Positions 19,080 through 47,992 of a stretch of DNA of 48,865 nt are shown one piece after another. The notes beneath the pieces are model-generated. The model made no database searches, had not been told where the DNA came from, and was given only the letters and a program-made list of their open reading frames with translations. The DNA lies in IMG/VR virus record IMGVR_UViG_3300025864_000500, positions 1 to 48,865 of that record, one strand, 5' to 3'. Source of the DNA: a virus. Positions within the stretch are counted from its first letter, which is position 1, and each line of letters opens with the position of its first letter. Position numbers and translations under genes: made by a program.

Positions 19080-19144
19080 AAAGCAAATAATGCGGGTATT
19101 GCCCACACTATTTGCTTTTAAAAATGGAGCATTAGAACAGCTCC
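19080..19144 (-). promoter_or_regulatory. Operator site a (degenerate) within a long hairpin, and weak terminator
   Basis: 19091-19107 reads TGCGGGTATTGCCCACA, the most divergent copy of the phage operator. It is flanked by perfect 10-bp arms (19080-19089 and 19109-19118), so in RNA the whole 39-nt block can fold as a stem of about 17 bp with a 5-nt loop. A TTACTTTA -7-like element follows at 9 bp on the minus strand. At 19126-19144 GGAGC/GCTCC plus a T run is a weak terminator for the operon that ends at 19240. The 18957-19239 gap contains no gene. Confidence 0.5.
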
Positions 19145-19239
19145 TATATATACTCTGATTATCAGATACTTTACTTCATCCCTTAAACCTTTCTTTTAAC
19201 AACTTTCTTCTATATGGCATTGAAGTAGGGTAACTCATG

Positions 19240-19515
19240 CTACTTGATTTCAAATGATTCACACAACAGGGCATCCCCTACAATGACATCGATGGGTCCA
19301 AACCAAGAGGTAAACACAACGGATGCTTCTGCATTGAAAGCGAGTCCATCGACTTTGCCTTCTTCATTGACAACCAACATCTGTCCATCTTTATGGGTTA
19401 CAATTTGAACGTATCCACCAACTGCATCCTGCAACTCTTTCAGATTAAATGCCTTTCTTCCATTCCCTGGCTTCAGCTCCGAGCGTTCACCTGATGTCTT
19501 TAATAATTTTGCCAT
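19240..19515 (-). CDS. DUF3846 family phage protein
   Basis: 91 residues. Matches DUF3846: LKELQDAVGGYVQIV, then a short hairpin, MLVVNEEGKVDGLAFNAEA, then the closing block DVIVGDALL. These proteins occur mostly in phages and plasmids; their function is unknown. Last gene of the small early operon, 10 nt after radC. Confidence 0.8.
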   Translation of the reverse strand: MAKLLKTSGERSELKPGNGRKAFNLKELQDAVGGYVQIVTHKDGQMLVVNEEGKVDGLAFNAEASVVFTSWFGPIDVIVGDALLCESFEIK

Positions 19516-19525
19516 AATCTATTTC

Positions 19526-20263
19526 TTATAATTTGCCTTCATCGGCGTATGAATAATAACTGCTTTCTGAAAATATCAGGTGGTCGGTCATCTGAATATC
19601 GAGGTTCTGACAGCCAAGCTTAAGTTTCTGAGTGATCTTGTCATCACAGCTACTTGGATAGGGATTGCCTGACGGATGGTTGTGTACAAGGACTACGGAC
19701 GATGCCAAACATTGAAGCGCTGCCTTCAGTACGATCTTTGGATCCACCGTTGTTTCGGATACTCCACCATGACTGATGCGAACTACATCAATGATTCGGT
19801 GCTGGTTGTTCATCAACATTATCCAACATTCTTCATGGTCAAGATCAGCCATTCTTGAGTGGAATGTTTCATAAATGTCTCTACTGTTCCGGATCTGCAC
19901 CCTTTTCTTGAAATCCTCACTTCTGCGTCGTTTGCCAAGTTCGACAGCTGCTACAATGGAAGTGGCTTTCTGCTTGCCAACGCTTGGGAACAAGAGCAAA
20001 TCATCAATAGTAAACTTGCCTAGTTCATTCAGGTTGTTGCCAGCCTTGGACAATATCAACTTCGCAATCTCAAGGGCATCGAGGTCTGCATTACCTGAAC
20101 CAAGCAAACAAGCAATCAACTCTGCGTTTGTGAGTGCTGCTGTACCTTTGCTTATCATCTTTTCCATAGGCCGGTCTTCTTCTGCCCAATCTTTCAACTT
20201 CAATCTAACTACTGGCTGTTCTTCGTACTTTTCCATTTTGGTATTGGTTTTTTTAGTTATCAA
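19526..20263 (-). CDS. radC: RadC-like JAB-domain protein
   Basis: 245 residues (or 236 if Met10 at 20236 is used). An N-terminal helix-hairpin-helix-like region (LTNAELIACLLGSGN and LLLFPSVGKQKA) precedes the JAB/MPN domain with the JAMM metal motif: VHNHPSGNPYPSS followed by Asp (H-x-H, then S and D). The full RadC domain set is present. RadC proteins are common on mobile elements; the molecular role is unsettled and the metal site implies a hydrolase. Lies within a set of small early phage genes. Confidence 0.92.
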   Translation of the reverse strand: MITKKTNTKMEKYEEQPVVRLKLKDWAEEDRPMEKMISKGTAALTNAELIACLLGSGNADLDALEIAKLILSKAGNNLNELGKFTIDDLLLFPSVGKQKATSIVAAVELGKRRRSEDFKKRVQIRNSRDIYETFHSRMADLDHEECWIMLMNNQHRIIDVVRISHGGVSETTVDPKIVLKAALQCLASSVVLVHNHPSGNPYPSSCDDKITQKLKLGCQNLDIQMTDHLIFSESSYYSYADEGKL

Positions 20264-20461
20264 TCAATTCATTTCTTCATCAAATACATATTCTTCAAAA
20301 TCTTCAAGGGAGTTGATCAGGCCATCGAAGTCTTCATTGTGTCCGAGAACTTCAGCCAAACAAAGGACTGTATCAAGCGATACTCCGTATTCTGATGCCA
20401 TACAATTCAGATAATCAGCTCTATTCAAATAGCCATTACTTACATAAACATTCTTTGCCAT
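20264..20461 (-). CDS. Small hypothetical phage protein
   Basis: 65 residues. The N-terminal YVSNGYLNRADYLNCMASEYG is followed by an acidic tail (DFEEYVFDEEMN). Resembles an N-terminal helical pair with a very acidic end, a common pattern in Bacteroidota phage early proteins. Stop abuts the radC start. No function recognised. Confidence 0.65.
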   Translation of the reverse strand: MAKNVYVSNGYLNRADYLNCMASEYGVSLDTVLCLAEVLGHNEDFDGLINSLEDFEEYVFDEEMN

Positions 20462-20480
20462 AATTCTTTTTATTTGGGGA

Positions 20481-20696
20481 TTAAAACTTAAAAGTCAAAC
20501 TTGCTCCATTGTCATAATTGAAACAGAGCCTTGCTCCTGATAGGTACGGTGCATCCATGAAATGGTAGATATCATTGATAGTCAGCCATTCATCAATCGT
20601 CCTCTCCTGACTACTTGAGTTCGGAAAGCCTACCGAGACAACAACCCCAAGGGTTTGTGCTGCCTTCACTACCTCAGCGGGTGTCAATGGTATCAT
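20481..20696 (-). CDS. Small hypothetical phage protein
   Basis: 71 residues, alpha/beta, in the radC operon. Starts MIPLTPAEVVKAAQ and ends in a strand-rich LCFNYDNGASLTFKF. No family recognised; four nucleotides separate it from the gene upstream, which supports cotranscription. Confidence 0.6.
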   Translation of the reverse strand: MIPLTPAEVVKAAQTLGVVVSVGFPNSSSQERTIDEWLTINDIYHFMDAPYLSGARLCFNYDNGASLTFKF

Positions 20697-20699
20697 ACT

Positions 20700-20894
20700 T
20701 CAATCTTTATTAAGGTTGCTCCAAATCTGATCCAACTCTGAAGTCTCGATTTCAACATCGGTGTTCGGGTACGTGATGACCAACTTCTTGACAAGGTTGA
20801 TACGGCTGAAAGCATCGACAGGGGAAGAAAGGTTCAACATCTCCTGTACGTCGGATAGGTGGCTCATGATAGCCATGTGGATGGATATTTTCAT
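20700..20894 (-). CDS. Small hypothetical phage protein
   Basis: 64 residues, no family recognised. Its ATG overlaps the stop of the upstream 55-residue gene (TAATG), so translation is likely coupled. Alternative starts at Met7 and Met10 would shorten it. Confidence 0.6.
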   Translation of the reverse strand: MKISIHMAIMSHLSDVQEMLNLSSPVDAFSRINLVKKLVITYPNTDVEIETSELDQIWSNLNKD

Positions 20895-21061
20895 TACTGT
20901 ACTTCTGTTACTGATACAACTTCCAAATCTTCAGGGAAACAATCAAGTTCCGGTGCAAGTGTTTCACGAGCATCAGCTTCAGCTTCTTCTGCATTTACTG
21001 CATCAAAAGTGTTGGTTAGAATCAAACCAAGGTCAAGGACTACTACTTCAAACTTCTTCAT
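20894..21061 (-). CDS. Very small acidic phage protein (55 aa)
   Basis: Reads MKKFEVVVLDLGLILTNTFD, then an Ala/Glu-rich helix (about residues 21-34) and a C-terminal LEVVSVTEVQ strand. The length and the beta-alpha-beta look suggest a small folded domain. First gene after operator b: the -7-like element lies about 30 nt upstream, giving a short leader. The good start and the coupled overlap with the next gene support it. Confidence 0.65.
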   Translation of the reverse strand: MKKFEVVVLDLGLILTNTFDAVNAEEAEADARETLAPELDCFPEDLEVVSVTEVQ

Positions 21062-21091
21062 TTTGTATTGTGTTTTGGTTATTATGATAGT

Positions 21092-21126
21092 ATGAAGGTA
21101 ATCATTAAGTGTGGGTATTGTACACA
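21092..21126 (-). promoter_or_regulatory. Operator site b with -7-like element (promoter of the radC operon)
   Basis: 21110-21126 reads TGTGGGTATTGTACACA on the plus strand. Nine bases beyond it on the minus strand is TACCTTCA (21099-21092), an approximate TAnnTTTG. Lies just past a terminator-like hairpin and 49 nt upstream of the first gene of the radC operon. Confidence 0.65.
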
Positions 21127-21192
21127 GTTATTTCATTGTTTTTCTGTCATTATAGATTATTAACTGATTCATATACAACAACATACAATAAA

Positions 21193-21218
21193 GGGGCAAC
21201 ACCTTTCGATGCTACCCC
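21193..21218 (-). terminator. Probable intrinsic terminator
   Basis: On the minus strand GGGGTAGCA pairs with TGTTGCCCC (9 bp, two wobbles, 8-nt loop) and is followed by TTTATTGT. Ends the small early operon that starts at 22576, just before operator b starts the next one. Confidence 0.6.
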
Positions 21219-21239
21219 CTATCCATTGGAGTAGAACAA

Positions 21240-21398
21240 TTACATTAGAACACTTGCTTTGTCAAGGGCAATCTGAATAGAACAGGTCTTCTCTTCAAGG
21301 CAAGAACAGCAGGATACTTGATACCTGTCTCTGCGACAAGAACTTGCCTTCTTGCATTGGAAATCAAACGACTTGGCAGCTTTCTCTTTCGTACTCAT
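21240..21398 (-). CDS. Cysteine-rich mini-protein (52 aa)
   Basis: Reads MSTKEKAAKSFDFQCKKASS and continues with a Cys-rich core. Six cysteines (15, 21, 30, 31, 33, 39) in 52 residues suggest a zinc-binding knuckle. Cotranscribed with the gene 5 nt upstream and followed by a terminator. No family recognised; small zinc proteins of this kind are common early in phage genomes. Confidence 0.6.
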   Translation of the reverse strand: MSTKEKAAKSFDFQCKKASSCRRDRYQVSCCSCLEEKTCSIQIALDKASVLM

Positions 21399-21403
21399 GG
21401 CTT

Positions 21404-21775
21404 TTAAAAATAACAGGTGGATACCAACATATCATTTTTTGCAAACAGCCTTCTGTTCTCAGGACATTTCTCAAACCTTACTTCTTCGTAGGAAAACAGA
21501 TAGTCTTCCATGATGGACACACGATGGAAGGGGGTGCAGTCAAGGCAGGTGGCACCAAGGTCGAGTTCATTGATTAGCTTGATGTCACAGACGTACTCAT
21601 AATAAACATTGCCATTGTTCAGCTTGAAATACTTTGTCTCAAGGTGCCTTCTCTTGTGGCGTTTGACAACATCTTGCCCATAAACATTGACCTGACCAAT
21701 CAGCATCTTGTTGGTCGGATCTGCAAGGACGGCCTCAATGGTGTCGTACCTTACTTCAATCTTGAATGTCTTCAT
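21404..21775 (-). CDS. Hypothetical phage protein
   Basis: 123 residues, alpha/beta with two Cys (CLDC, near residue 78) and many basic residues in the middle (KRHKRRHLETKYF). Overlaps the upstream gene by 4 nt. Family not recognised. Confidence 0.6.
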   Translation of the reverse strand: MKTFKIEVRYDTIEAVLADPTNKMLIGQVNVYGQDVVKRHKRRHLETKYFKLNNGNVYYEYVCDIKLINELDLGATCLDCTPFHRVSIMEDYLFSYEEVRFEKCPENRRLFAKNDMLVSTCYF

Positions 21776-21993
21776 CTTCTTGATATTTTAACTTTGATTT
21801 GAACATCTTTCATCTCATCCTCAATCTTCTTCAGGTCATCGACTGAGATCCCATAGATATGCGAAGTCATGTTCTGACTTGTATTCCGGAAACCATTGGC
21901 CCTTTCTTCTCCTTCAAATGCAAGGATTTCTTCATACTCGTAGCGGTTTTCGAGAATCCTCTGCTCAATTTTCTTTCTGTCTTTTTTGTTCAT
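21772..21993 (-). CDS. Small charged hypothetical phage protein
   Basis: 73 residues, very rich in Lys and Glu, predicted helical, with a strand-like basic end (VQIKVKISRR). In the same operon as its neighbours. No family recognised. Confidence 0.6.
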   Translation of the reverse strand: MNKKDRKKIEQRILENRYEYEEILAFEGEERANGFRNTSQNMTSHIYGISVDDLKKIEDEMKDVQIKVKISRR

Positions 21994-22008
21994 GACTTTT
22001 TTTTTAGT

Positions 22009-22242
22009 TCAAATCAATTTCAGGTGGTGCAAACTTCCAAACTCATCGGACTTTCTTGCCCAATTGCTGTCTTCTTTGTAATAGTCACCACCCCAATTCT
22101 GAGGCTCATCAAATCTGACTCTGACAAAGACTGCATCTTTCAGGTCTTGAACCAAAATAATCGTTCCTCTGACCATCATGCCGGTAAAGATGCAATCGCA
22201 CCTTTTACCAACTATTGCTTGGGTTGCTTCAGCGGTCTTCAT
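22009..22242 (-). CDS. Small hypothetical phage protein (beta-barrel-like)
   Basis: 77 residues starting MKTAEATQAIVGKRCDCIFT. This Met is preferred over a start 30 codons upstream, because the longer form would lie almost wholly inside the preceding gene. The pattern (IVGKRCDCIFTGMMVRGTI, later VRVRFDEPQNWGGD) looks like a small SH3-like barrel. Overlaps the upstream gene by 14 nt. Confidence 0.55.
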   Translation of the reverse strand: MKTAEATQAIVGKRCDCIFTGMMVRGTIILVQDLKDAVFVRVRFDEPQNWGGDYYKEDSNWARKSDEFGSLHHLKLI

Positions 22243-22576
22243 ATTCAATATTTCTTTTGATTGTGCGTAATGCTTCTTCATCTTCTTCTGACTCAACTCC
22301 ATCTTCATCAAAGAACCATGCAATACTTCCACTTGAGTTCGGGTTCAAGGAATGTCTGTTTGCTTCGGGATCTGCTTTGAACCTGTCAACTCTTTTATTC
22401 ATTTCCTCAGCTGCATATTCAAGTTCATCATCTTCTCTTGCTGTCAAGAGGACCAAGTTCAAAATGTTCAGCCTGAACCTTTCGATGGAGTCCTCACCTT
22501 CGTTGTACAAATTCGTAAACTCAACAGCCTTGCTGCGAGCGTCGGTCATGGTCATTAGATCTACTGCGTGTGTCAT
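22229..22576 (-). CDS. Acidic hypothetical phage protein
   Basis: 115 residues, helical and acidic, ending in a Glu-rich stretch (GVESEEDEEALRTIKR). First gene after operator c, so it heads this small early operon. No family recognised. Confidence 0.6.
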   Translation of the reverse strand: MTHAVDLMTMTDARSKAVEFTNLYNEGEDSIERFRLNILNLVLLTAREDDELEYAAEEMNKRVDRFKADPEANRHSLNPNSSGSIAWFFDEDGVESEEDEEALRTIKRNIEYEDR

Positions 22577-22613
22577 CTTCTTCTACTTTTAAATAGGTTG
22601 GTTTCTTATTGTA

Positions 22614-22650
22614 ATATAAAAGTAGTCATAAGGTGTGGGTATTACACACT
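22614..22650 (-). promoter_or_regulatory. Operator site c with -7 element (early promoter)
   Basis: 22634-22650 reads TGTGGGTATTACACACT. Nine bases beyond it on the minus strand is TACTTTTA (TAnnTTTA) at 22624-22617. The first gene starts about 45 nt downstream. This fits a Bacteroidota promoter whose -33 region is covered by the operator. Confidence 0.75.
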
Positions 22651-22706
22651 AAAAACCAAGTATTTTTCATTCATTATATGTTATTAACTTATACTTTTAC
22701 AGGCAC

Positions 22707-23759
22707 TTACATACTTTCTTTGATTGACCACCGGTTGTCCTCAAGGAAGTACGGCAACTTTCCTTTCTTAGTGGCATGGTCTATGTTGTCAGCATTCTCA
22801 TTAACCCATTTCTTGAAACCTTCAGGCAAGTCCTTGACAGTATCTTTGGGATTTACATTGTCTCCATTCTGCATCTGTACAAACTCATCAACAGTAGCAA
22901 GCACAGAAAGCGTGTAACACCTGCATTGTGGATGCCAACCGGTGAACTTGAAGTCCTTTGGATACTTTCCTTTCAGCGATTCACAGACATCACAACCAAA
23001 GACATGGTTGGAACGCTTCACTTCAATGCCAACTACAAAGTCAAGCTGTTGATTGCTTTCGTAATCGGATGCCCTGTATGCCATGTTTATCTCAGTTCTC
23101 GTGAGTCTCATGGCATTCTTGTAGGAACTTGCGTATCCACCTGACTGCCTGCTTACAAAGTAGTCCTTCATGCTTTTGGATGGAACAAGGTCTTTGTTCT
23201 TGTCTCGAACACGATGGAACAGCTTGTCCGGTTCCTGAAGGTATTGTCTTAGATCCCTACTCAGTTCAGCTGCAGACTTTCCTTCAGCCAGTCCAACATC
23301 GAGCCCCATTTCTATGTCTCCCTTGAATTGCTTGGAATATTTCCACACCCTGTCGGACAGGTTCAACCCTTTGGCCTTTCTTTTTTGGAAGGCAGCCAAG
23401 GCATCAAGGTTTCTTGCTTGGTATTTTGCCAACTGCTCTGCTGTAAGTTCAACCTTGTCAGCGAATACACCAACCAGCTTGTCATTCATCAGGCAAGCTT
23501 CGAGCCATTCTTCTCTAGTTGCTTCATTGATAACCATTGCAGTATTGGCATACAGTCCGGCTATCAGCTTGTCAATCCTTGCCTTGGTCTGAGGATAGTC
23601 CTTGAACTCAAACGGAATCTTGGAATCAACGGACGAAATAGACACACCAATCTTCGCTGCTTCTCTTGTTGCTAAAAGGTAAATCTGTTCAACTTTCTTA
23701 GCATAGAGGTCAGTTCTCTTGGCGTGATCTATTTCCGATTGTACGCTTATCTTGTTCAT
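22707..23759 (-). CDS. Phage head morphogenesis protein (MuF / SPP1 gp7-like)
   Basis: 350 residues. The start at 23759 (MNKISVQSEIDHAKR) is preferred over a TTG two codons earlier. The N-terminal two-thirds is helical. The C-terminal MuF module is clear: RLTRTEINMAYRASDYE, then FGCDVCESLKGKYP and GWHPQCRCYTL, with the Cys-x2-Cys and His-x2-Cys-x-Cys residues of the family. MuF proteins dock on the portal and are ejected or help assemble the head. Follows the portal gene as usual; operator d lies just upstream. Confidence 0.9.
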   Translation of the reverse strand: MNKISVQSEIDHAKRTDLYAKKVEQIYLLATREAAKIGVSISSVDSKIPFEFKDYPQTKARIDKLIAGLYANTAMVINEATREEWLEACLMNDKLVGVFADKVELTAEQLAKYQARNLDALAAFQKRKAKGLNLSDRVWKYSKQFKGDIEMGLDVGLAEGKSAAELSRDLRQYLQEPDKLFHRVRDKNKDLVPSKSMKDYFVSRQSGGYASSYKNAMRLTRTEINMAYRASDYESNQQLDFVVGIEVKRSNHVFGCDVCESLKGKYPKDFKFTGWHPQCRCYTLSVLATVDEFVQMQNGDNVNPKDTVKDLPEGFKKWVNENADNIDHATKKGKLPYFLEDNRWSIKESM

Positions 23760-23771
23760 AGTCAATTAAAT

Positions 23772-23788
23772 TGTGGGTAATACACGCA
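23772..23788 (-). promoter_or_regulatory. Operator site d without a promoter (stoperator-like)
   Basis: TGTGGGTAATACACGCA, 12 nt upstream of the MuF ATG, in the 48-nt gap after the portal gene. No TAnnTTTG/A element lies at 7-10 bp on either strand, and nothing else in the gap looks like a promoter. It therefore sits in the middle of the packaging operon, in the same orientation as the promoter-linked sites. A repressor bound here could block elongation, as at the stoperators of mycobacteriophage L5. Confidence 0.6.
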
Positions 23789-23807
23789 CTTCTTATCAAA
23801 AAAAGGG

Positions 23808-27340: not shown

Positions 27341-27389
27341 AGCTTCCTTTTTTAATGTTCAACTTGTTCATAGGCGAGGGAACGATTTC

Positions 27390-28862: not shown

Positions 28863-28864
28863 GA

Positions 28865-30528: not shown

Positions 30529-31369
30529 AGATTTGTCTTATTACATATTCGAGAATGTCTTCATACCTGTACCATGTGTTTTCCTTAATTTGCGAGGGAG
30601 CAATTCTTTCCACTTGATACCCTTCGAGATGGGCAAACGGATTAAAACCAAAAGGAATATTCACAAGGGCTGTTCCGCTTATCCTTTTCGATGCTTCAAC
30701 GTAATAAAGGACACCGGCCTGACCTTCTATCAACTGCAGGTGGAAAATACCATTGAATAATCCAATCAACTTAGTGAAATAGGCCTGCTCAATAATCTCC
30801 CTGGCTGCTTCGTACACAGGATGGTCCAATGGCAGAAACTTGACATACTGATCATAACCATCCTTCAGCTGTACTTCCCTAGCCCACATATCAGAACCGA
30901 TACAATCAACGACATACTCAGCTTTCTTGTCAACGAGTTCACTGATGCAGACATCGTCAAGCATCTGAAGTCCTTTAGAGCCGGCTGATTCTGAGTTTGG
31001 CCTGATGCAGACATTGCTATAACTAAACGTGGTTGGAATGCGAACCTTGAGATAATCAACTCTTTCAGCGAGGATTTCATTGACTCTAAGCTTGTCATAC
31101 CAAACAGAATTGACTCCGTACTTTTTGGGGTTTCTCTGTCTTGTCAGCTCGTCAGCAGGAAATACAATAAAATCATCAAAGGAGTCCATTTCGTTGGAAT
31201 TAATGACTGCTCCAATTGGCGACAAGTGAGTGAATATAGGGTTCGTGTCTGCCATAACCAAGTTACGACCATTTACTAATCCCCTTCTCTGAGCGTACAA
31301 GTAGCAAAGCTTGGCAGAATAACCGGCACGACCTCCTGATTCAAAAACAACATAGTCCTTGTCGCTCAT
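30521..31369 (-). CDS. ATP-grasp family ligase
   Basis: 282 residues. Starts SDKDYVVFESGGRAGYS and has the ATP-grasp features: VCIRPNSESAGSKGLQML (phosphate-binding loop region), YVVDCIGSDMWAREV and YVEASKRISGTALVN, the acidic-Asn-Arg type metal block (E-x-x-x-R-x-S-G-T). Such enzymes make amide or ester bonds between a carboxylate and an amine with ATP. Overlaps the deacetylase gene by 4 nt and the decarboxylase-like gene by 8 nt. A likely role is adding an amino acid to an amine freed by the deacetylase; that is inference. Confidence 0.75.
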   Translation of the reverse strand: MSDKDYVVFESGGRAGYSAKLCYLYAQRRGLVNGRNLVMADTNPIFTHLSPIGAVINSNEMDSFDDFIVFPADELTRQRNPKKYGVNSVWYDKLRVNEILAERVDYLKVRIPTTFSYSNVCIRPNSESAGSKGLQMLDDVCISELVDKKAEYVVDCIGSDMWAREVQLKDGYDQYVKFLPLDHPVYEAAREIIEQAYFTKLIGLFNGIFHLQLIEGQAGVLYYVEASKRISGTALVNIPFGFNPFAHLEGYQVERIAPSQIKENTWYRYEDILEYVIRQIYD

Positions 31370-32010
31370 CTGTATAATTTCTGAATATAGAACACTTCGG
31401 CAAATGGCATCCCTGATTCAAGTCCTCTCATGGCAGCAAGCGTCAGGATCCCTTTTTCATTAAGCGGGGATGGCGGTGCTTTCTGCTGTGTCAGATAGTT
31501 TTTGAATAGGCTGACTTTATCATTGATGACATCGGTAATTTCATGATACCATCTTCCCCCAGGAATACTTGTCATTTCACAACCGACAAACGGATACTCA
31601 TAAAGTGCAACAAGCGATGGCATGAAACCTTCCTTCAATCTCATGGAAGCAAGGAAGCAGTCGTACAATTTCTTGTGGTCTTGGTGGTGCGAAGGGTAGC
31701 AACAGAACACTTCGTCAGGTTCAAATTCAGTAATCTGCCGATCAATTGCACTTGTAAGACTTTGAGCATCAACAGTATCAAGGATACCATCATGACCTAA
31801 TACGAAAATATGCTGACTTGCATTTAGGGATTCAACCACAGCATCGAACTCAGCCATTCTGACGGCAATATCTTGCTTGATGTCGGTTCCACCGATGGTT
31901 GCTATGAACAACCGGATATCAGAACCTTTGGCTTTCTCGTGAAGCAAATAACCCCCGCATCCGAGTGTTTCATCGTCTGCGTGGGGTGCTATGACAAGTA
32001 TCTTCTTCAT
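31366..32010 (-). CDS. PIG-L family N-acetyl hydrolase
   Basis: 214 residues with the start at 32010 (MKKILVIAPHADDETLGCGG), which is preferred over a GTG 18 codons upstream that lies within the operator. Zinc residues are visible: His10, Asp12-Asp13 in APHADDE, and PSHHQDHKK (His108/109, Asp111, His112). PIG-L enzymes deacetylate N-acetylglucosamine-type sugars. First gene of the operon, controlled by operator e, and overlapping the ATP-grasp gene by 4 nt. Confidence 0.9.
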   Translation of the reverse strand: MKKILVIAPHADDETLGCGGYLLHEKAKGSDIRLFIATIGGTDIKQDIAVRMAEFDAVVESLNASQHIFVLGHDGILDTVDAQSLTSAIDRQITEFEPDEVFCCYPSHHQDHKKLYDCFLASMRLKEGFMPSLVALYEYPFVGCEMTSIPGGRWYHEITDVINDKVSLFKNYLTQQKAPPSPLNEKGILTLAAMRGLESGMPFAEVFYIQKLYR

Positions 32011-32031
32011 TTTTAGGTGGTCAATAAGGCT

Positions 32032-32063
32032 CAAATATACTAACAATGTGGGTAATACACACA
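32032..32063 (-). promoter_or_regulatory. Operator site e with TATATTTG -7 element (promoter of the modification operon)
   Basis: 32047-32063 reads TGTGGGTAATACACACA: both half-sites complete, with a single mismatched pair around the central base. Seven bases on, the minus strand has TATATTTG (32039-32032), a perfect TAnnTTTG. The deacetylase start is 22 nt further. Upstream (32064-32520) I see about 450 nt with no convincing gene. Confidence 0.85.
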
Positions 32064-32523
32064 CTTATGTAGCATATAAGTGCCATCTTCATGCTTTTCT
32101 TGTCAAATACTTTGCAATATCCAAACGACCTATTCCTTTCGGTCAGGTTGCTTTTTCTAATTTCATAAAGGGTTTAGGGAGTATCTACTGCTTAGGTTTA
32201 ACCTTCGAAAGCGAATTGAGAAGTGAAAATTTGGACAATAATCTGTAAGAAACTGAGGACTGCAACGGATGCATCGTCATGATGTCGACAGAATGATTCT
32301 GGGAGGCATCTATCAATGTTTCCACTCATTTGAAAGGGCAAGCAATGTTATTGATTATAAGGATTTTAGCAGCATGTCCCAAAACATGAATTTTTTGTAC
32401 ATAAATTAAAAATAAAGTTGTACATTGTTATGTTTTTTCTGCTCGGATTTCTGTGGGTTTTATAAGTTAGTGACTTAAAAAAAGCAAAGGAATGGATTTT
32501 TAAAACCCTAATTAGTAACTACT

Positions 32524-34789: not shown

Positions 34790-35674
34790 ATGTATTATAG
34801 ACGTAAGATCTTATTGGCTCTATTAGAGACATTTAATAACAAGCTTGACAAAATAAGTTTGCAAAAATTGTTATTGTTAATTGCTAAATATCAACAAAAA
34901 CCTGATTACTTTTTTGTACCCTATAAATTTGGTTGTTATTCCTTTCAAGCTAATGCAGACTTGACAACAATGATAAAATACAATCAGGTTAAATCTGAAA
35001 ATAATTGTTGGATTAAAACAGATTCTGATAATTATTTTTCAAGTTTGAAGGAAAATGACAAACAAGCTATTAATAAAGTTAAATCACTTTATGGTAATAA
35101 AAGTGCAGATGAGCTTATAAAGATTACTTATTTGAAGTACCCTTATTATGCTGTTAATAGCACAATTGCTAAAGACAGACTTAGTGATTCAGAATACAAG
35201 TTGGTTTTAGACGCACGACCAATATCAAATAAGACGATTTTATATACTATTGGATACGAGGGTGTTAGCTTAGAGGAATATTTGAACAAGCTTATATTGA
35301 ATGATATTAATGTTCTTTGTGATGTTCGTAAAAATCCTATAAGTATGAAGTTCGGCTTTAGCAAAGTCCAATTGAAAAAAGCTTGTGAAGGTCTTGGGAT
35401 TGAATATGTTCACATTCCCGATTTTGGAATAGATTCGGATAAGCGGCAAGAGTTAAATACCCAATTGGATTACAATAATTTGTTTGCTTTATATCGTTCA
35501 AGTACTTTGAATGAAACAAAAGAAAAGCAAGAAGCATTATTGGCTTTGTTAATTGAAAGGAAACGTGTTGCATTAACTTGTTTTGAGGCAAACGTATGCC
35601 AATGTCACCGGAAACATTTAGCCGATGCAATTGTAGGATTACCCGGATTTAAATACGAACTGAGACACATTTAA
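34790..35674 (+). CDS. DUF488 protein with N-terminal Panacea/SocA-like domain
   Basis: 294 residues. The N-terminal 90 residues (RRKILLALLETFNNKLDKIS, then SLQKLLLLIAKYQQ and VPYKFGCYSFQANADL) resemble Panacea/DUF4065-type domains. The C-terminal half is DUF488: LYTIGYEGVSLEEYLNKL, VLCDVRKNPIS, then CFEANVCQCHRKHLA with the conserved Cys-x-Cys-His. DUF488 proteins are of unknown function and frequent on mobile islands. AT-rich like its partner, which follows after 1 nt, and unlike the phage genes. Confidence 0.8.
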   Translation: MYYRRKILLALLETFNNKLDKISLQKLLLLIAKYQQKPDYFFVPYKFGCYSFQANADLTTMIKYNQVKSENNCWIKTDSDNYFSSLKENDKQAINKVKSLYGNKSADELIKITYLKYPYYAVNSTIAKDRLSDSEYKLVLDARPISNKTILYTIGYEGVSLEEYLNKLILNDINVLCDVRKNPISMKFGFSKVQLKKACEGLGIEYVHIPDFGIDSDKRQELNTQLDYNNLFALYRSSTLNETKEKQEALLALLIERKRVALTCFEANVCQCHRKHLADAIVGLPGFKYELRHI

Positions 35675-35675
35675 G

Positions 35676-36657: not shown

Positions 36658-36658
36658 C

Positions 36659-39851: not shown

Positions 39852-39853
39852 CT

Positions 39854-40288
39854 CTAAAAGTTTTGCAGATTTGCTTCAAATTCTTCTATGCTTATTTTGT
39901 TCAGATAGACAGCGAAGATCACGTCCTTCACTTTGTCATACAATTCCCTGAACTCAAACTCACCCATGCTGTCGAAAGAAATGCTTACAGGCTTCTCAAG
40001 CCATTCCCTCCTTGCGATGGAATAAGTCAAAGTGCAATATCCAGCAGCTACTTGAACTGTTTCTCTGAACATCTCCTTATTGTGGTGGAAGAACTCATCC
40101 TGTTCTTCATTCAGATACGCCCAAGAAGTATTTATCAAAGCAAAATACTTTCGAAGCAGTCTGATATTCCGAACCTTCGTGACCTTGACTTTGTAAAACT
40201 CATCAAGCTTCAACTTCTTCTTGTTGTCGAGATCTTCGTCATACAGGGGTACAAGACCTAAGAACGTGTTCTTTACAATTATTTCCAT
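39854..40288 (-). CDS. DUF1367 family phage protein
   Basis: 144 residues starting MEIIVKNTFLGLVPLYDED at 40288; a TTG two codons earlier is less likely. Matches DUF1367 blocks: KLKLDEFYKVKVTKVRNIRL, LRKYFALINTSW, then SISFDSMGEFEFRELYD. These proteins occur beside replication and recombination genes of phages; function unknown. First gene after operator f and its leader terminator. Confidence 0.8.
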   Translation of the reverse strand: MEIIVKNTFLGLVPLYDEDLDNKKKLKLDEFYKVKVTKVRNIRLLRKYFALINTSWAYLNEEQDEFFHHNKEMFRETVQVAAGYCTLTYSIARREWLEKPVSISFDSMGEFEFRELYDKVKDVIFAVYLNKISIEEFEANLQNF

Positions 40289-40296
40289 ATTCAATC

Positions 40297-40344
40297 AAAA
40301 AAGCCTACCCCAAGCAAGTGTGCAACCTTGCAAAGAGTAGGCTT
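40297..40344 (-). terminator. Leader terminator before the replication operon
   Basis: On the minus strand AAGCCTAC (40344-40337) pairs with GTAGGCTT (40308-40301), 8 perfect bp with a 28-nt loop, then six T residues. It lies between the operator-f promoter (start site near 40408) and the DUF1367 gene, so replication transcripts must pass it. Transcripts from operator f would be about 110 nt if they stopped here. Confidence 0.75.
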
Positions 40345-40414
40345 AATCGAACTTCGAGAGTCCGTATTACTTAAATCGTTTTGCACGACGATGGATTGAA
40401 GCTTTTTACTGCGG

Positions 40415-40448
40415 TAAAGATAAACTAAATATGTGGGTATTGCACACA
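40415..40448 (-). promoter_or_regulatory. Operator site f with TATCTTTA -7 element (replication promoter)
   Basis: 40432-40448 reads TGTGGGTATTGCACACA. Nine bases on, the minus strand has TATCTTTA (40422-40415). Followed by a leader of about 110 nt ending in a strong terminator rather than directly by a gene. Confidence 0.8.
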
Positions 40449-40501
40449 TCATGACAAAATAAATGGTTTTAAATTGTGTTTTATTCATCATGAATCCCAT
40501 A

Positions 40502-42129: not shown

Positions 42130-42152
42130 AATCGTTTTTGGTTTAGTGTTAT

Positions 42153-42184
42153 ATAAAGATAGTCAAAGTGTGTGTAATAACCAC
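42153..42184 (-). promoter_or_regulatory. Operator site g with TATCTTTA -7 element (recT promoter)
   Basis: 42168-42184; its complement reads TGTGGTTATTACACACA, so this copy is inverted relative to most others. Seven bases on, the minus strand has TATCTTTA (42160-42153). RecT starts 24 nt further. Sits between the Rad50-like and recT genes. Confidence 0.7.
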
Positions 42185-42215
42185 ACATACAGGCACATAG
42201 AAGTGTTAATGGTTG

Positions 42216-44162
42216 TCAATGCTCAACAATTTCAAGTTCGCTGTATCCCTTGTCAACGACTAGGTTGATAATCTGAGCATCCATTTCAGGAATAGAAGTG
42301 ATTGACTCGCGGTTATCTAGCCAAATCGGTGCAAACACATTGTAAAACCTTGAGATGGCATCAATGATGTCAAGTCCGGCTCCTATCTGCATGGCGTTGT
42401 TCAGCGTTCCATAGGGTACACCATCGACCATACATTCAAAGTCAGGTACAATCTGTCCATCGACTTGTTGCTTGAACAATCGGAACTTGGTGAACTTGAA
42501 CATTTCATTGATACGTTTCTGATACTCCGTACTTTTGGCAAATTCAAAGTTCTTTATAGTGAACTCCTGCTTTTCAAGGTCAGCCATCAGCTGGCTTGCA
42601 TCGGTAATCATCCCTTGGATCTGTTTTATCCGAGTGTTAGTGTTTTGAATGACTCCCTTCAGGGCAATCTTACTTTTCAAGGCATCTATTTCATTTCCGA
42701 CAGAGACCTTCTCAGCCTTGATATCATCGGTGGTCTGTTCCTGAGTAGGTGCATCAAGGTCAGCCTGAAGGTCTTCTATCTCCTTTTCAAGAGTCAAATA
42801 ACCATCGGACATCTTGTAGTCTCCGATTGCTGCCTGAAGTTCAGAAAGGGTAGTTGCCACCTTCAGCATGGCATCTTCCATTTCTAAGATGTCGATGTCA
42901 GGTGTTTCTTCGAGCAATCTCAAAGCTTCAACGATTTCAGCAACTCTTGTAACCTTTCCTTTGCCACCACCAATATTCGTTGTCAGCCTTTTTGCTTTTG
43001 CAGTATTGAAGTTCGAGGTAAGTTCAGCCTGCTTGCTTTCAATGTCTGAAATATCAAGAGGACGTTTACAGGTAGGGCAATCGAATGTACCATCAGGAAA
43101 GACAAGCGATTCAGCATTTATTTTCTTGTACTCCGTTCTCAAGATCCCAAGGTCTTGTTCAAGGGCCACTTTCTCTGATGTCAGATTGTGCTTAGTAATT
43201 GCTTTGCTGTTGTTGGTTCGGGCTGCTTCAGTCTTCGTTTCTTGCATTTTTGCAAGGCCAGTCCGGACTAAAGCAATAGCTTCCTTCCGTTTGGTTTCTT
43301 CATCAAAGCCGAATTTCTGAAGACTCAACTTCAGTTCGTTTATCTTGCCTTGGAATTCCATCCTGCCCTTGTTGGCTGAACTCATTCTTGTGGCAATGTC
43401 ACTCAACTCACTTTCGATTTCTACCAAGCGAGCTTTCTTCTTTTCGATGTCCGCTTCAATGGCTTTCAGATTGGGCATCTCAGGCATGTGCTGGACAAGT
43501 TCATCTACTCGTGGCTGAAGGTCTGCGAGTTCGTTTTTCAGCTTTAACTTCTTGGCATTGATGGTTTTCCTGAAAGCTTCAAAGGATGCACCGGAAGCAT
43601 CAAGGAGCAGTTTCTTGAAGTCTGCATTCTTACCGGCAATATCATCATCGGAAAGAGAAACCATCGAATACAGAATGTCACGTTGGGCATCAGGCTTCAA
43701 ACTTGGGAAGTAAGAAGGGTTGGTTATAACCCTGAAACGCTGTTGGTCACAAAGGCTTTCAATCTTGGCATCGTATTCTGACTTCTTGACTTCACAATTG
43801 TCAATGTAGTACTCCGTCATGTTTGACTCGAATACTTCCTCAATCATAGTTTTTGGCTTCACCCATTTTTCCTTGTACACACGTTTTAATAGTAGTTCGA
43901 CACCATCGATGTCGTACACACCCTCAACTTCACAAGCCAGACGGTGGGTAATCTCTCCGTCTGATTTATACTTCTTCAGCTGGTAGTCATTCCTGCCCAG
44001 GTGATCCTTGCCAAACTTCAACCAAAGGTCGGCATCATTAAGCGAGGTCTTTCCTGACCCATTTCTTCCATGAATAAAGGACTCCTTGCTATCAAAATCA
44101 AAGGTCGCATTCGCAATACCTTTGAAATTGGTCAAGGTCATCCTTTTGAGATACATTTTCAT
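42216..44162 (-). CDS. Rad50/SbcC-like SMC ATPase with zinc hook
   Basis: 648 residues. Head: MTLTNFKGIANATFDF, Walker A GRNGSGKTSL (about 32-41). Long coiled coils on either side of a zinc hook CPTCKRPL (about 361-368). The C-terminal head is degenerate: no clear LSGG signature, and the Walker B-like APIWLDNRES (about 614) lacks the usual Asp-Glu pair, so hydrolysis may be impaired. No Mre11/SbcD partner gene is present. Tethers DNA ends; likely part of the RecT recombination module, though recT has its own operator. Confidence 0.85.
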   Translation of the reverse strand: MKMYLKRMTLTNFKGIANATFDFDSKESFIHGRNGSGKTSLNDADLWLKFGKDHLGRNDYQLKKYKSDGEITHRLACEVEGVYDIDGVELLLKRVYKEKWVKPKTMIEEVFESNMTEYYIDNCEVKKSEYDAKIESLCDQQRFRVITNPSYFPSLKPDAQRDILYSMVSLSDDDIAGKNADFKKLLLDASGASFEAFRKTINAKKLKLKNELADLQPRVDELVQHMPEMPNLKAIEADIEKKKARLVEIESELSDIATRMSSANKGRMEFQGKINELKLSLQKFGFDEETKRKEAIALVRTGLAKMQETKTEAARTNNSKAITKHNLTSEKVALEQDLGILRTEYKKINAESLVFPDGTFDCPTCKRPLDISDIESKQAELTSNFNTAKAKRLTTNIGGGKGKVTRVAEIVEALRLLEETPDIDILEMEDAMLKVATTLSELQAAIGDYKMSDGYLTLEKEIEDLQADLDAPTQEQTTDDIKAEKVSVGNEIDALKSKIALKGVIQNTNTRIKQIQGMITDASQLMADLEKQEFTIKNFEFAKSTEYQKRINEMFKFTKFRLFKQQVDGQIVPDFECMVDGVPYGTLNNAMQIGAGLDIIDAISRFYNVFAPIWLDNRESITSIPEMDAQIINLVVDKGYSELEIVEH

Positions 44163-44446
44163 TCCTGATCTTTTTTATGGTTTATAAACAAATCCAAATT
44201 ACTTTTCTTGTAGGTAAGCAAGCCGCCAATCTTGTCAGCTCTAAGGACGTTGTCCTTTCTCCATCTGTAAAGGGTAGTAAGGCTCAACTTGATGTTTTTC
44301 GCCAACAAATAGCCTAGGGCTTCATTGGGAGTAAAATACATTTCTTCTGCAGTCTGAACTACTGAAGCAGGTTTGGTCAGTACAGCTGTCATTTCGAGAA
44401 ATTCACCAACTGTCAACATAAATAATGGTTTGCTATTATCAATCAT
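44159..44446 (-). CDS. Excisionase-like helix-turn-helix protein
   Basis: 95 residues. TTLYRWRKDNVLRADKIGGL and LLTYKKSNLDLFI match the HTH_17/MerR-like excisionase domain (a turn-helix then 'wing' with an arginine-led helix). In early lysis-region position. Excision factors work with the integrase; a transcription role is the alternative. Overlaps the next gene by 4 nt. Confidence 0.65.
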   Translation of the reverse strand: MIDNSKPLFMLTVGEFLEMTAVLTKPASVVQTAEEMYFTPNEALGYLLAKNIKLSLTTLYRWRKDNVLRADKIGGLLTYKKSNLDLFINHKKDQE

Positions 44447-44679
44447 AGCTGTTGGTCGGCTCTAGCAACAAGTATCAATACTCTTTCGTAATCAGCAAGG
44501 GTGAAAGAATCCTCAGTGAAGTCGATTTTAGCGACAACCTTTCCATCTTTCAGCGTGTTAATCAGGTTCAGCTTGAAATTCAGGACCACCTTCATCCCAT
44601 TCGGGAAATCGTGTGTCATGGTTTCATTTGCAGTTTCAAAACTAGTAATCCAATTGTAATTCAGTATTTCGTTATTCAT
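44443..44679 (-). CDS. Small hypothetical early phage protein
   Basis: 78 residues starting MNNEILNYNWITSFET; a start 12 codons earlier would lie inside the LuxR-type gene. Beta-rich (MTHDFPNGMKVVLNFKL), no family recognised. Located between the LuxR-type regulator and the excisionase-like gene. Confidence 0.5.
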   Translation of the reverse strand: MNNEILNYNWITSFETANETMTHDFPNGMKVVLNFKLNLINTLKDGKVVAKIDFTEDSFTLADYERVLILVARADQQL

Positions 44680-44686
44680 TGTGGAT

Positions 44687-45235
44687 CTATTCAAAAAGTT
44701 TATTTTCATGTGCAAAATTCAGAAACTCAACCATCGAGTGAAGGTTCAACTTCGAAAGGACATTCCGTCTGTGGTTACGGACAGTATGGATTGAAAGGTA
44801 CAGCTGGTCTGCGATGCTTTCGGTAGGGATGCTCATGATGTACAATTTCATTACCTCCAGCTCCCTGTTGCTCAACTCACAGCTGAACTTCGGTTGGCAG
44901 ATGGTTTTGAAATACTTGCACTCAGACTTCATTGGGCAGGCGATAGGCCCGTAACGCCTTCTTCCTGTTGGAAGTATTGGCTGATGTTTTTCGATGCCGA
45001 TACAGCAGTTTATTACCCTTCTTGCCATAAGAAAATGGTAGTAACCTTGGTTTGCGGAACTTTTAGCATAGGCTTTCATTAAAGCGCTGTACTGCTCAGG
45101 ATAAAAGGTTTTGCTATGTTCGAGAATGTCCTCAATAATATCGGTATCTTCTTCGGTAAGGGGCCTGACAGAATCCTCACTTACTTCCCGATACATCGCT
45201 TCCCCAGAGGTAGGATTGGAAAACAGTTCTTTCAT
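44687..45235 (-). CDS. LuxR-type regulator with Cys cluster (early regulator)
   Basis: 182 residues. The C-terminal LuxR/GerE helix-turn-helix is clear: LSNRELEVMKLYIMSI, ADQLYLSIHTVRNHR, LSKLNL. Ahead of it lie Cys77-Cys78 and then CPMKSECKYFKTICQPKFSC (Cys100, 106, 113, 119), a spacing that could hold zinc or an iron-sulphur cluster. There is no typical autoinducer-binding or receiver domain. Divergent from the cI-type gene with the Cro-like gene between; a candidate activator or antirepressor for the phage operators. Confidence 0.8.
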   Translation of the reverse strand: MKELFSNPTSGEAMYREVSEDSVRPLTEEDTDIIEDILEHSKTFYPEQYSALMKAYAKSSANQGYYHFLMARRVINCCIGIEKHQPILPTGRRRYGPIACPMKSECKYFKTICQPKFSCELSNRELEVMKLYIMSIPTESIADQLYLSIHTVRNHRRNVLSKLNLHSMVEFLNFAHENKLFE

Positions 45236-45441
45236 ACAAACAGCCTTTCTACTTCGATGCCGGTCTCCTCCGACAGAATGGTTAGAAACTCAGACTTGCC
45301 AGGCTTCGTCTTGCCTTTTACCCACAAACGGACAGTTCCGGCATCAATGCCACAGCGGTCTGCTATCTTTTTAATGAACTCCGTCTTAGGGGCTGAAGCG
45401 TGGGGCAGCCCCTCATAGAAACTTGTCAATGTCTTGTTCAT
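45232..45441 (-). CDS. XRE-type early regulator (Cro-like)
   Basis: 69 residues starting MNKTLTSFYEGLPHASAPK; a TTG three codons earlier is less likely. EFIKKIADRCGIDAGTVRLWVKG is a helix-turn-helix of the XRE/Cro class. Overlaps the LuxR-type gene by 4 nt, and is transcribed away from the repressor gene across operator h, the Cro position in lambda-like immunity regions. Confidence 0.75.
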   Translation of the reverse strand: MNKTLTSFYEGLPHASAPKTEFIKKIADRCGIDAGTVRLWVKGKTKPGKSEFLTILSEETGIEVERLFV

Positions 45442-45479
45442 AGCTTTCAAATGTCATTTTTATAAGTTATTACTATAAA

Positions 45480-45513
45480 TGTGTGAGAATACCACACCTT
45501 TTACCTATCTTTA
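45480..45513 (+). promoter_or_regulatory. Operator site h, divergent immunity promoter
   Basis: 45480-45496 reads TGTGTGAGAATACCACA; its complement aligns with the other operators at 12 of 17 bases. Nine bases on, the plus strand has TATCTTTA (45506-45513), aimed at the cI-type gene. On the minus strand a weaker TAACTTAT lies at 45469-45462, towards the Cro-like gene. A shared site between the two opposing regulators is what an autoregulatory immunity operator would look like. Confidence 0.7.
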
Positions 45514-45542
45514 CCTTAGTAGCATAGTAGGAACATGTAAAT

Positions 45543-45573
45543 ATAATGATAATAAATTATATAATATCATTAT
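45543..45573. repeat. AT-rich inverted repeat upstream of the repressor gene
   Basis: ATAATGATA (45543-45551) and TATCATTAT (45565-45573) are perfect 9-bp arms with a 13-nt centre in the repressor leader. In such AT-rich DNA it could be chance, or an additional operator. Confidence 0.4.
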
Positions 45574-45619
45574 TCAATATATATTATACAAATTAGTCCA
45601 TAATTTAACTTATACAGAA

Positions 45620-46054
45620 ATGATTGATTTCGGCGGTAGATTAAAGTCTATAAGGCAAAAAATGGGGCTTACTCAGCAAGAGTTTGCGGATAAATTGGGA
45701 TTAGCTCAATCGTTCTACTCTCTCTGTGAATCAAACAAGGCGTTTCTCGCTTTGTCTAAATCTGAGGTGCTTTTCAAGGAATTTGGGGTTTCTCCTCAAT
45801 GGTTCTTTTCTCCTGAAGACTATGAAAGTGTAATAATGGAAAAACCATTAGCAAAGTCGGATTTATCCTCGACACAAGGAATAGATGCTTTTCATAAACT
45901 TATAGAGCTATTCTATAATTCACAGGATCAGATAAAGACATTAACTGAGATATTACTTGACAAGGATGCTGTCATAAAGCAAAAGGACGAAGAAATTTTT
46001 AATCTTACAAACGAAATACTAAACTGTGGTTGTCGTACTAGAAATAAAAAATGA
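45620..46054 (+). CDS. cI-type repressor (XRE helix-turn-helix), candidate master repressor
   Basis: 144 residues starting MIDFGGRLKSIRQKMGLTQQ at 45620; an open frame 47 codons longer upstream begins inside the operator. XRE domain at about 6-60 with a clear helix-turn-helix, then a linker and a coiled-coil end (DKDAVIKQKDEEIFNLTNEI). There is no S24 protease domain, so induction would need an antirepressor or another route. Head of a plus-strand operon with two small genes. Confidence 0.85.
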   Translation: MIDFGGRLKSIRQKMGLTQQEFADKLGLAQSFYSLCESNKAFLALSKSEVLFKEFGVSPQWFFSPEDYESVIMEKPLAKSDLSSTQGIDAFHKLIELFYNSQDQIKTLTEILLDKDAVIKQKDEEIFNLTNEILNCGCRTRNKK

Positions 46055-46257
46055 TGGAAAACACCCAACTTTCAAAATTACTCATGCTGTATAAAGCAGC
46101 TATCGAACAGAACCTATCTCCTGGTGAATTTGCCAAGGAAGTTTTGGATGCAAAAATCCAACTCGACAAGGTTTTCACACTCACAGGCAGTGAGGACGAA
46201 AATCTGAAGGACTATTTGACAGAACTCGAACATTTAAACAAGTACACCAATGAATGA
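46051..46257 (+). CDS. Small hypothetical protein of the repressor operon
   Basis: 68 residues, helical and acidic (SPGEFAKEVLDAKIQLDK). Overlaps the repressor gene by 4 nt and the next gene by 8 nt, so the three are translated together. No family recognised; perhaps a partner of the repressor. Confidence 0.6.
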   Translation: MMENTQLSKLLMLYKAAIEQNLSPGEFAKEVLDAKIQLDKVFTLTGSEDENLKDYLTELEHLNKYTNE

Positions 46258-46513
46258 CCTGAACAGCGTTAAAGTTATCGAAAGATATTACGAAGCACTT
46301 GATCTTGTAGTAGCAAACAAAAAAATCAGAGGTGTTGCCACCTTCACGAATGCCCATGGCTTTGACCGTCGTGCAATGTACAACGTCAAAAAGAATCCAA
46401 AAAGCGACATGTTTCAGATGTCTTGGATGGCTGCCTTGATTTCGGATTTCGGTGTTTCGGCCAAGTGGCTAATGACAGGGGTGGGCGGTATGTTCGAAAG
46501 CGACTCAAAGTAG
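46250..46513 (+). CDS. Second repressor-like DNA-binding protein
   Basis: 87 residues. VANKKIRGVATFTNAHGFDR, RRAMYNVKKNP and SAKWLMTGVGGMF match a short Bacteroidota family with a helix-turn-helix and a 'WLMTG.G.MF' ending, often annotated as transcription regulators. End overlaps the integrase end (converging genes, 9 nt). Probably acts with the cI-type protein in lysogeny. Confidence 0.7.
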   Translation: MNDLNSVKVIERYYEALDLVVANKKIRGVATFTNAHGFDRRAMYNVKKNPKSDMFQMSWMAALISDFGVSAKWLMTGVGGMFESDSK

Positions 46514-47830
46514 CATATCAACCAACTCGTTCTTCATCTCTTCGTCAATCTCCCTATACCTTGCGAAAGCTTTGCTGCCTTCAACGTGACCACTCATTGG
46601 CGCTATCAGGTTTGGATCCTTGACTTGCTTATACAGATTACCAATAAATGCCCTTCGAGCCATGTGACTGCTTGCCACTTCGTTCAGAGGGCGTTTTTCT
46701 TCCACTCTTGTCGTGGAGTTCAGGACAGTAACAATCCTCGTCAACTTAGCAAGCGCGAAAGCATCCCTGATGGCATCATTGTACCTTGGCTCAGAGATAA
46801 ACGGAAACAGCTTCTCTCTATCATCGTCTTTGTACCTTTCATATATTTCCTTTGCCATAGCGTTCAACGGCACTCTGACAGTAACAGGGTTCCCTTCCTT
46901 GGTCTTGCTGGCAATATACTCGACGGCACCGGCTATCAGATTATTTTTCGTCATTCTGTAGAAGTCTCCAATTCTGCAACCAATCAGGCATTGGAATACA
47001 AAAATATCCCTCTGAACAGCAAGGGCCGGCCTTTCTGACAAATCATGCTTGTACAGCTTATTCCTTTCTTCTATTGTTATGTAGTAAGGCGTACCATAGA
47101 CAGCTTCGACAATTGTGTAATGTACGAAAGGATTGTTCTTGAAACGGCCTGTATCATTCCCCCATTTGATGAATGATCTGAACTTCTTCATTATGCCATT
47201 ACAGGTGTTCTGTCCTCTCGGTTCGGGTTTTCTTGATTCAGGAACTCTCTTGTAGATGTCGGGGTACAATTTGGACGTTTCGTGTTCTTTCTTCAGGAAT
47301 GTCTCAAATTCCGACAATGTGTCTTCATTCATAGTCTCAACATCGAGTACAAAGCTTTTGTCTGTCTTTTGCTTGTACATCTCAAACCTTTTCAATGACC
47401 GACCAAAAACATTGATTTGCCTGATCCTATCGTATGACACCTTCTTTTTGCTGACAAACTCATCGAACAGAACATGGATGGTAGGACCAACTTCATCGGC
47501 TAGAATGTACTTTTCAGGAAAGTGAAACTTATCAATGGTAGTCTCAAGCCACTCCTTAGTCAATATAGACTTGTCAGAGGACTCGTATGCTTTCAGGATA
47601 AACTTTATCAGGCGGTTGAGTTTTTCACTCAAAGTTATCAACTCTGTACGTTCGGCATTCTCAATCTTTGGAATAGAAATCTCGTTTTTCTTTGTCCATC
47701 TTTTAGAGGACACAAACAAGCCCGACTTTACTCTGTGCCTTTGGGTGGAACTTGCAGAAAAACGAATCAGGATCCCTGAACGCTGTAACTCATCCGTCTT
47801 GGCAGACAGACTCAAAGTGATTGTAGCCAT
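46505..47830 (-). CDS. int: Tyrosine site-specific integrase
   Basis: 441 residues using Met at 47830; a Met 11 codons earlier lies in the promoter. Arm-binding N-terminal domain (ITLSLSAKTDELQRSGILIR), SAM-like core-binding domain (about 120-240), catalytic domain with Arg286 (IGCRIGDFYR), Lys in SKTKEGNPVTV, His389-x-x-Arg392 (SHMARR), His in MSGHVEG and nucleophile Tyr425 (FARYREI). All catalytic residues present. It lies next to the tRNA-like attachment site, so it integrates and excises this element. Confidence 0.95.
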   Translation of the reverse strand: MATITLSLSAKTDELQRSGILIRFSASSTQRHRVKSGLFVSSKRWTKKNEISIPKIENAERTELITLSEKLNRLIKFILKAYESSDKSILTKEWLETTIDKFHFPEKYILADEVGPTIHVLFDEFVSKKKVSYDRIRQINVFGRSLKRFEMYKQKTDKSFVLDVETMNEDTLSEFETFLKKEHETSKLYPDIYKRVPESRKPEPRGQNTCNGIMKKFRSFIKWGNDTGRFKNNPFVHYTIVEAVYGTPYYITIEERNKLYKHDLSERPALAVQRDIFVFQCLIGCRIGDFYRMTKNNLIAGAVEYIASKTKEGNPVTVRVPLNAMAKEIYERYKDDDREKLFPFISEPRYNDAIRDAFALAKLTRIVTVLNSTTRVEEKRPLNEVASSHMARRAFIGNLYKQVKDPNLIAPMSGHVEGSKAFARYREIDEEMKNELVDMLL

Positions 47831-47850
47831 ACTTGAAAATTGTTGTCGGA

Positions 47851-47891
47851 CAAAGATAGTCATTCTTTATTTTTGTCCACCAATTGTCCAC
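47851..47891 (-). promoter_or_regulatory. Integrase promoter with direct repeats
   Basis: TATCTTTG (47858-47851, minus strand) is a perfect TAnnTTTG 20 nt upstream of the integrase start. Just upstream, TTGTCCAC occurs twice with an 11-bp period (47873-47880 and 47884-47891, plus strand), about one helix turn apart; possible integrase arm sites or an operator. Confidence 0.65.
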
Positions 47892-47975
47892 GAACTTTAA
47901 ACGTAACTGATTTGCATTGATTATATTTGGCGTACAAACTCTCGGAACCCCTCTGAAATGGAGGGAAGTGGCCTA

Positions 47976-47992
47976 TGTGGGTAATGCACACA
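47976..47992 (-). promoter_or_regulatory. Operator site i near the attachment site
   Basis: TGTGGGTAATGCACACA, a strong match to the consensus. No -7 element lies at the right distance on either strand, and it is about 145 nt from the integrase start and 20 nt from the tRNA-like sequence. Perhaps a stop site for transcription entering from the host, or part of the attachment region. Confidence 0.6.

Follow-up and report, generated by a model that had tools for sequence, protein, structure and literature searches.

A phage-wide family of 17-bp operators in a Bacteroidota phage probably bound by a small repressor encoded beside the integrase

The sequence analyzed here (the window) is the 48,865-base virus record IMGVR_UViG_3300025864_000500, which its promoters and relatives identify as a Bacteroidota phage. 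Nine 17-bp near-palindromes are dispersed over it, and we read them, with a probability of roughly 0.7, as the operators of one phage-encoded repressor, most likely an 87-aa XRE-fold protein. Since the sequence of the switch tracks this one small protein from phage to phage, the protein is the probable repressor behind the silencing of the phage.

Proposed repressor: 46250–46513, plus strand; 87 aa, predicted XRE-fold DNA-binding protein of PHROG 9710, recognition helix at residues 40–48 (RRAMYNVKK).

All nine sites described in an earlier note on this DNA were found in the window with the sequences it gave, site g being corrected to 42169–42185. Scored with a position weight matrix (PWM) built from all nine, sites a–g and i reach 21.6–26.4 bits and the top non-site 10.6 bits. 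A search of both strands allowing three mismatches gave 15 matches, against 0.37 expected and a shuffle maximum of 2. Eight of the near-palindromes greatly exceed what chance would give; the ninth, site h, is weaker. Site h (TGTGTGAGAATACCACA) scores 12.3 bits, which is not significant from sequence alone, as shuffles attain about 15 bits. It was accepted because of its position, 9 bp before TATCTTTA inside the cro/cI gap; at least 11 relatives also bear an operator of their own in that gap. Within the palindromes, 6–8 of the 8 positions pair; the sites are near-symmetric, and the TACCCACA half is promoter-proximal and faces the same way in eight of the nine. With the SigABfr consensus (TAnnTTTG at −7 and TTTG near −33; PMC7366714) as reference, seven sites (a, b, c, e, f, g, and h) have a −7-like element at a distance of 7–10 bp, as first noticed, and d and i have none. 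The sites are intergenic once two over-long open reading frame starts (31366–32064 and 45479–46054) and one doubtful open reading frame (40291–40500) are discounted.

Operator a: 19091–19107, minus strand; 10 bp upstream of the −7-like TACTTTAT, leftward head/tail gene cluster; 23.8 bits.
Operator b: 21110–21126, minus strand; TACCTTCA 9 bp downstream; 21.6 bits.
Operator c: 22634–22650, minus strand; TACTTTTA 9 bp downstream; 22.9 bits.
Operator d: 23772–23788, minus strand; flanked by the portal stop and the start of the minor head protein, −7 element not clear; 24.1 bits.
Operator e: 32047–32063, minus strand; TATATTTG 7 bp downstream, at the head of the late cluster, which runs leftward; 26.4 bits.
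Operator f: 40432–40448, minus strand; 9 bp upstream of TATCTTTA, predicted transcript opening with a strong hairpin leader; 25.3 bits.
Operator g: 42169–42185, minus strand; 7 bp upstream of TATCTTTA, RecT promoter; 23.3 bits.
Operator h (weak): 45480–45496, plus strand; TATCTTTA 9 bp downstream, at the promoter for the lysogenic operon cI-46051-46250 and also within the leader of the cro transcript; 12.3 bits.
Operator i: 47976–47992, no strand assigned; about 110 bp upstream of the integrase gene, no −7 element; 25.3 bits.

In the transcript expected from the site f promoter, a strong hairpin comes first and then a T run (40285–40415, minus strand; −41 kcal/mol over 131 nt). This leader resembles an attenuator or a small RNA and was not flagged by the terminator pattern scan.

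Relatives were collected through RecT, the LuxR-type protein, the Cro-like protein and, later, the 46250–46513 protein (hereafter the 46250 protein), and their operator families were sought by unbiased palindrome searches with shuffled controls. A megablast search of the right half of the window (23900–48865) against phage records returned no relative, and a whole-genome search of 395 Bacteroidia genomes found the Cro family in one, the reference prophage itself. At least 26 other Bacteroidota phages or prophages each have their own dispersed family of 17-bp palindromes with the same geometry, with 2–10 sites per genome compared to eight strong sites and one weak in the window. The sequence of the family varies by phage (TGTGGGTA, TGATTGTA, TGAGTGTA, CGTTTATA, ATTGCTTA, TGTGTTTN, and others), and the following families were assigned.

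G001: TGATTGTAWTACAATCA
G002, G003, G004, and G018: ATTGCTTAWTAAGCAAT
G005: CGTTTATAWTATAAACG
G006: TGAGTA-AWT-TACTCA
G008 and G009: TGAGTGTAWTACACTCA
G007: TTTTGGAAWTTCCAAAA
Bacteroides phage Versailles (ON453897) and at least 12 others: TGTGTTTNNNAAACACA

In a pooled set of 165 sites from 26 phages (the window and 25 relatives), the distance from the site end to TAnnTTTR peaks at 7 bp (34 sites) and 8 bp (32 sites), where 0.35 is expected per distance, and the element lies 6–9 bp away at 87 of the 165 sites versus about 1.4 expected. At the RecT promoter, a palindrome of differing sequence occupies one and the same position in the window, G001, G003, G004, G018, and G005, and operators syntenic with site h occupy the cro/cI gap of G001 and at least 10 phages of one operator class, class D. 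The architecture is conserved among these phages, and the operator specificity is diverging. The expectation that relatives would keep the sites between genes is borne out for position and architecture but not for the TGTGGG sequence, which is not common to them.

The 46250 protein is encoded by the last gene of the lysogenic operon, and its homologue closes this operon beside the integrase gene in every site-bearing phage examined, G002 and G004 being incomplete contigs. All 12 aligned members match PHROG 9710, a family listed as of unknown function, the window protein with an E-value of 4e-28. The gene before it belongs to the same operon.

68-aa lysogenic operon protein: 46051–46257, plus strand; accompanies PHROG 9710 in most relatives.

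Among 19 non-redundant phages, a Mantel test relates operator distance to the distance between the helix-turn-helix (HTH) regions of the 46250 protein with r = 0.75, compared to 0.54 for its non-HTH part, 0.32 for the portal protein, 0.15 for SbcC, and 0.23 for the Cro HTH (n = 14). The partial correlation of the 46250-protein HTH is 0.57 given Cro and 0.69 given portal, and that of Cro given the 46250 protein is 0.02. The strongest residue–base pair across both proteins joins residue 41 of the 46250 protein, near the start of the predicted recognition helix, with base 3 of the half-site. The rule has no exception: tryptophan goes with A in 8 of 8 cases and any other residue with T in 11 of 11.

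The earlier note had proposed three other proteins as binders, and none of them tracks the operator sequence as this fourth protein does.

Cro-like HTH protein: 45232–45441, minus strand; first gene of the lytic operon, operators not tracked.
cI-type HTH protein: 45620–46054, plus strand; heads the lysogenic operon; unrelated repressors take its place in relatives, with the operator unchanged.
LuxR/GerE-type regulator: 44687–45235, minus strand; missing in several phages whose operators are of the same kind.

Binding of the sites by the Cro-like protein, either alone or shared as between lambda Cro and CI, was an earlier working hypothesis. The protein occurs in all phages of the first set, has an XRE-type helix and an operator near its own gene, and shows related helices within classes C and D; an early Mantel test gave its HTH an r of 0.42. 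The first Mantel tests could not separate it from the 46250 protein, but the larger set did, with its correlation dropping to the values above. Under the constant class-D operator, moreover, the Cro helix positions vary (STK, HTS, HPT, SEK, HEV, and SEQ), and in G431 class-D operators occur together with another Cro helix. Cro homologues were not found in G432, G434, G435, G436, G437, G442, G443, and G446, searched in the contig part around the 46250 gene and, for five of them, over the whole contig, yet all eight phages have TGATT sites. Lambda-type sharing of the sites by Cro is, on sequence grounds, suggested neither by covariation given the 46250 protein nor by homologue presence, and we regard a role of Cro at these sites as unlikely.

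The Cro-less phages also served a prediction from the 46250 protein, noted before their full contigs were read, that a helix with INRWN goes with TGA...TCA and one with IDRRN with TGT...ACA. TGATT...AATCA families were present as predicted in G434, G436, G437, G442, and G443, and TGTGT...ACACA families in G439 and G441. A TGATT matrix trained on G001, G434, and G437 gave five, two, and one matches in the untrained G432, G435, and G446, respectively, against 0–0.33 in shuffles; the remaining untrained phage, G433, had one weak match. In phages of other helix types, excluding G006, G008, and G444 with their similar operators, the same matrix gave a mean near 0.5.

The cI-type and LuxR-type proteins are candidates by type, cI being the usual repressor and LuxR-type dimers binding palindromes near −35. 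However, both are replaced or absent where the operators persist. Within class D, cI is an XRE coiled-coil protein in G012, W01, and G019 and an S24-type protein in G020, G021, and G022, and cI is absent from G003 and G018 with the operator class unchanged. The LuxR-type protein is absent from G003, G012, G018, and G020–G022, and its recognition helix hardly differs between the window and G001, though their operators do. A LuxR/GerE regulon, with the cognate protein wherever the sites occur, was not found among these phages, and the LuxR-type protein as a class II activator, the first alternative considered, was rejected on account of the several operator-bearing phages that lack it. Of all the explanations weighed, control by either protein appears the least probable.

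Several points weigh against the 46250 protein as the repressor. In the first set of 11 non-redundant phages, it and Cro are inseparable, and common descent of the phages inflates both the Mantel and the mutual-information values. The Paludibacter phages G013–G016 (helix INRRN) lack the predicted TGT family and show no more than one or two copies of a TGCTTAT palindrome; G438 and G440 yielded no family and G010b and G011 no matching one, although all four have the protein. Sites d and i have no promoter. The AlphaFold model (five helices; predicted local distance difference test score, pLDDT, 88) agrees with an XRE fold, with phage 186 CI (2fjr) as its top neighbor in the PDB and SinR and HipB as others, but all these matches are weak (best fold E-value 0.32). 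Finally, an activator role may also be compatible with the sequence.

Activator sites of class II, lying over −33 and switching on middle and late promoters, would account for the late structural units that carry sites and for the −33 TTG being missing at 57 of the 87 promoter-linked sites. The proposal in the earlier note that the site replaces the −33 region is upheld in part, yet TTG at the −33 spacing is kept at 30 of the 87 promoter-linked sites, compared to 163 of 990 other TAnnTTTG elements. A clear −33 is missing from many Bacteroidota promoters in any case (PMC7366714). The protein that tracks the operators best belongs to the lysogenic operon beside the integrase gene, which speaks against an activator, and the lysogenic promoter itself shows the same site geometry. 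Activation is therefore considered improbable. Repression is indicated by the expression of the 46250 gene from the lysogenic operon and by the placement of the sites over −37 to −20 of lytic promoters.

Under repression by the 46250 protein, a dimer would sit on the 17-bp palindrome at about −37 to −20 from the start, a span that overlaps the −33 region of SigABfr promoters, and may keep RNA polymerase away from the RecT/early, replication, late structural, and integrase-side units. At site h, the protein may also limit its own operon by feedback. Control by cI would be confined to the early cro promoter and would use another, exchangeable operator. Such a separate operator is suggested by the class-D phages, in which the −7 elements of cI and cro face each other across a short variable segment and the 17-bp operator lies just outside. 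Binding, dimerization, repression, and the sign of regulation, like the division that would give cI the early promoter and the 46250 protein everything else, are proposed here from sequence comparison. The notion of one repressor for the whole phage survives in the phage-wide, promoter-overlapping operator family, plausibly served by a single repressor, and fails for the binders first proposed. We consider it an even question whether Bacteroidota temperate phages have a general two-layer lysogeny switch, in which an exchangeable cI acts at the early promoter only, and the rest of the phage is silenced by a small conserved PHROG 9710 repressor whose phage-wide operators diverge along with it. 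This repressor would also determine the immunity group, and its recognition helix would carry a residue-to-base code that can be read.

The repressor of phiC31 binds 17-bp conserved inverted repeats at many intergenic places and regulates itself. The window is similar in having conserved inverted repeats of about 17 bp at many intergenic places of one temperate phage, but differs in host phylum and promoter class, and its proposed binder is a separate 87-aa XRE-fold protein encoded downstream of a second, exchangeable cI. With lambda CI and Cro it shares 17-bp pseudo-palindromes, XRE-fold proteins, and divergent cI and cro genes; unlike in lambda, the sites are single and genome-dispersed, Cro does not track them, and two separate lysogenic-side repressors are proposed. 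The N-terminal domain of phage 186 CI (PDB 2fjr), the best fold neighbor, is also the best sequence neighbor of the 46250 protein, though a weak one (E-value 0.99), and the 87-aa protein lacks the oligomerization domain.

The sites had been called stoperator-like, which does not suit eight or nine palindromic promoter operators. The stoperators of Cluster A mycobacteriophages such as L5 are 13-bp, asymmetric, and number 20–30 per genome, and their repressor is a monomer with two DNA-binding domains thought to halt elongation (PMC6550527, PMC9283540). The two systems share phage-wide sites for one repressor, a putative one in the window, motifs and repressors that co-diverge in relatives, and an autoregulatory site in the repressor promoter. 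The dispersed intergenic positions, the promoterless sites d and i, and the same facing of the TACCCACA half would suit true stoperators that stop elongation rather than initiation, but sites that are palindromic, fewer than 20, and mostly locked to −7 elements make this highly unlikely. The system is best read as closer to phiC31 repeats or lambda-type operators. In the Bacteroides phage Hankyphage, the CI-like RepC is a master repressor whose silencing raises most phage genes; unlike for the window, no operator family is reported for it in the part of that paper considered here (PMC12135933).

These results provide a testable function for PHROG 9710 and map the operators of some 27 phages of the Bacteroidota, whose phages have been little studied for gene control. 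They also yield naturally matched repressor and operator specificities, of use in predicting superinfection immunity and in designing orthogonal promoters for gut Bacteroides. The relative Versailles is a prophage that has been induced in a laboratory mouse-gut consortium (PMC10197239), and therefore the repressor claim is directly testable.

Other features were observed in the window and its relatives. A DUF488 protein gene (34790–35674, plus strand) with a weak SocA/Panacea-like match lies on the strand opposite to its neighbors and is possibly an accessory or toxin–antitoxin-type gene. In class-D phages, arrays of a 16-bp palindrome, TTTTGCYTARGCAAAA, lie between the integrase gene and the lysogenic operon (L008, 1572–1961; also G020, G021, G022, G032, and G431) and are possibly integrase arm sites. 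These arrays and 21-bp arrays of CATTAAC..GTTAATG were set aside as features separate from the operators. Paludibacter-type phages (L105–L110; G013–G016) carry CATTAACNNNGTTAATG arrays with a 21-bp period at two places. At the end of contig IMGVR_UViG_3300014728_000011 (L080, 465–3248), 37 repeat copies with a period of 76–77 bp look like an array of clustered regularly interspaced short palindromic repeats (CRISPR), perhaps from a host flank.

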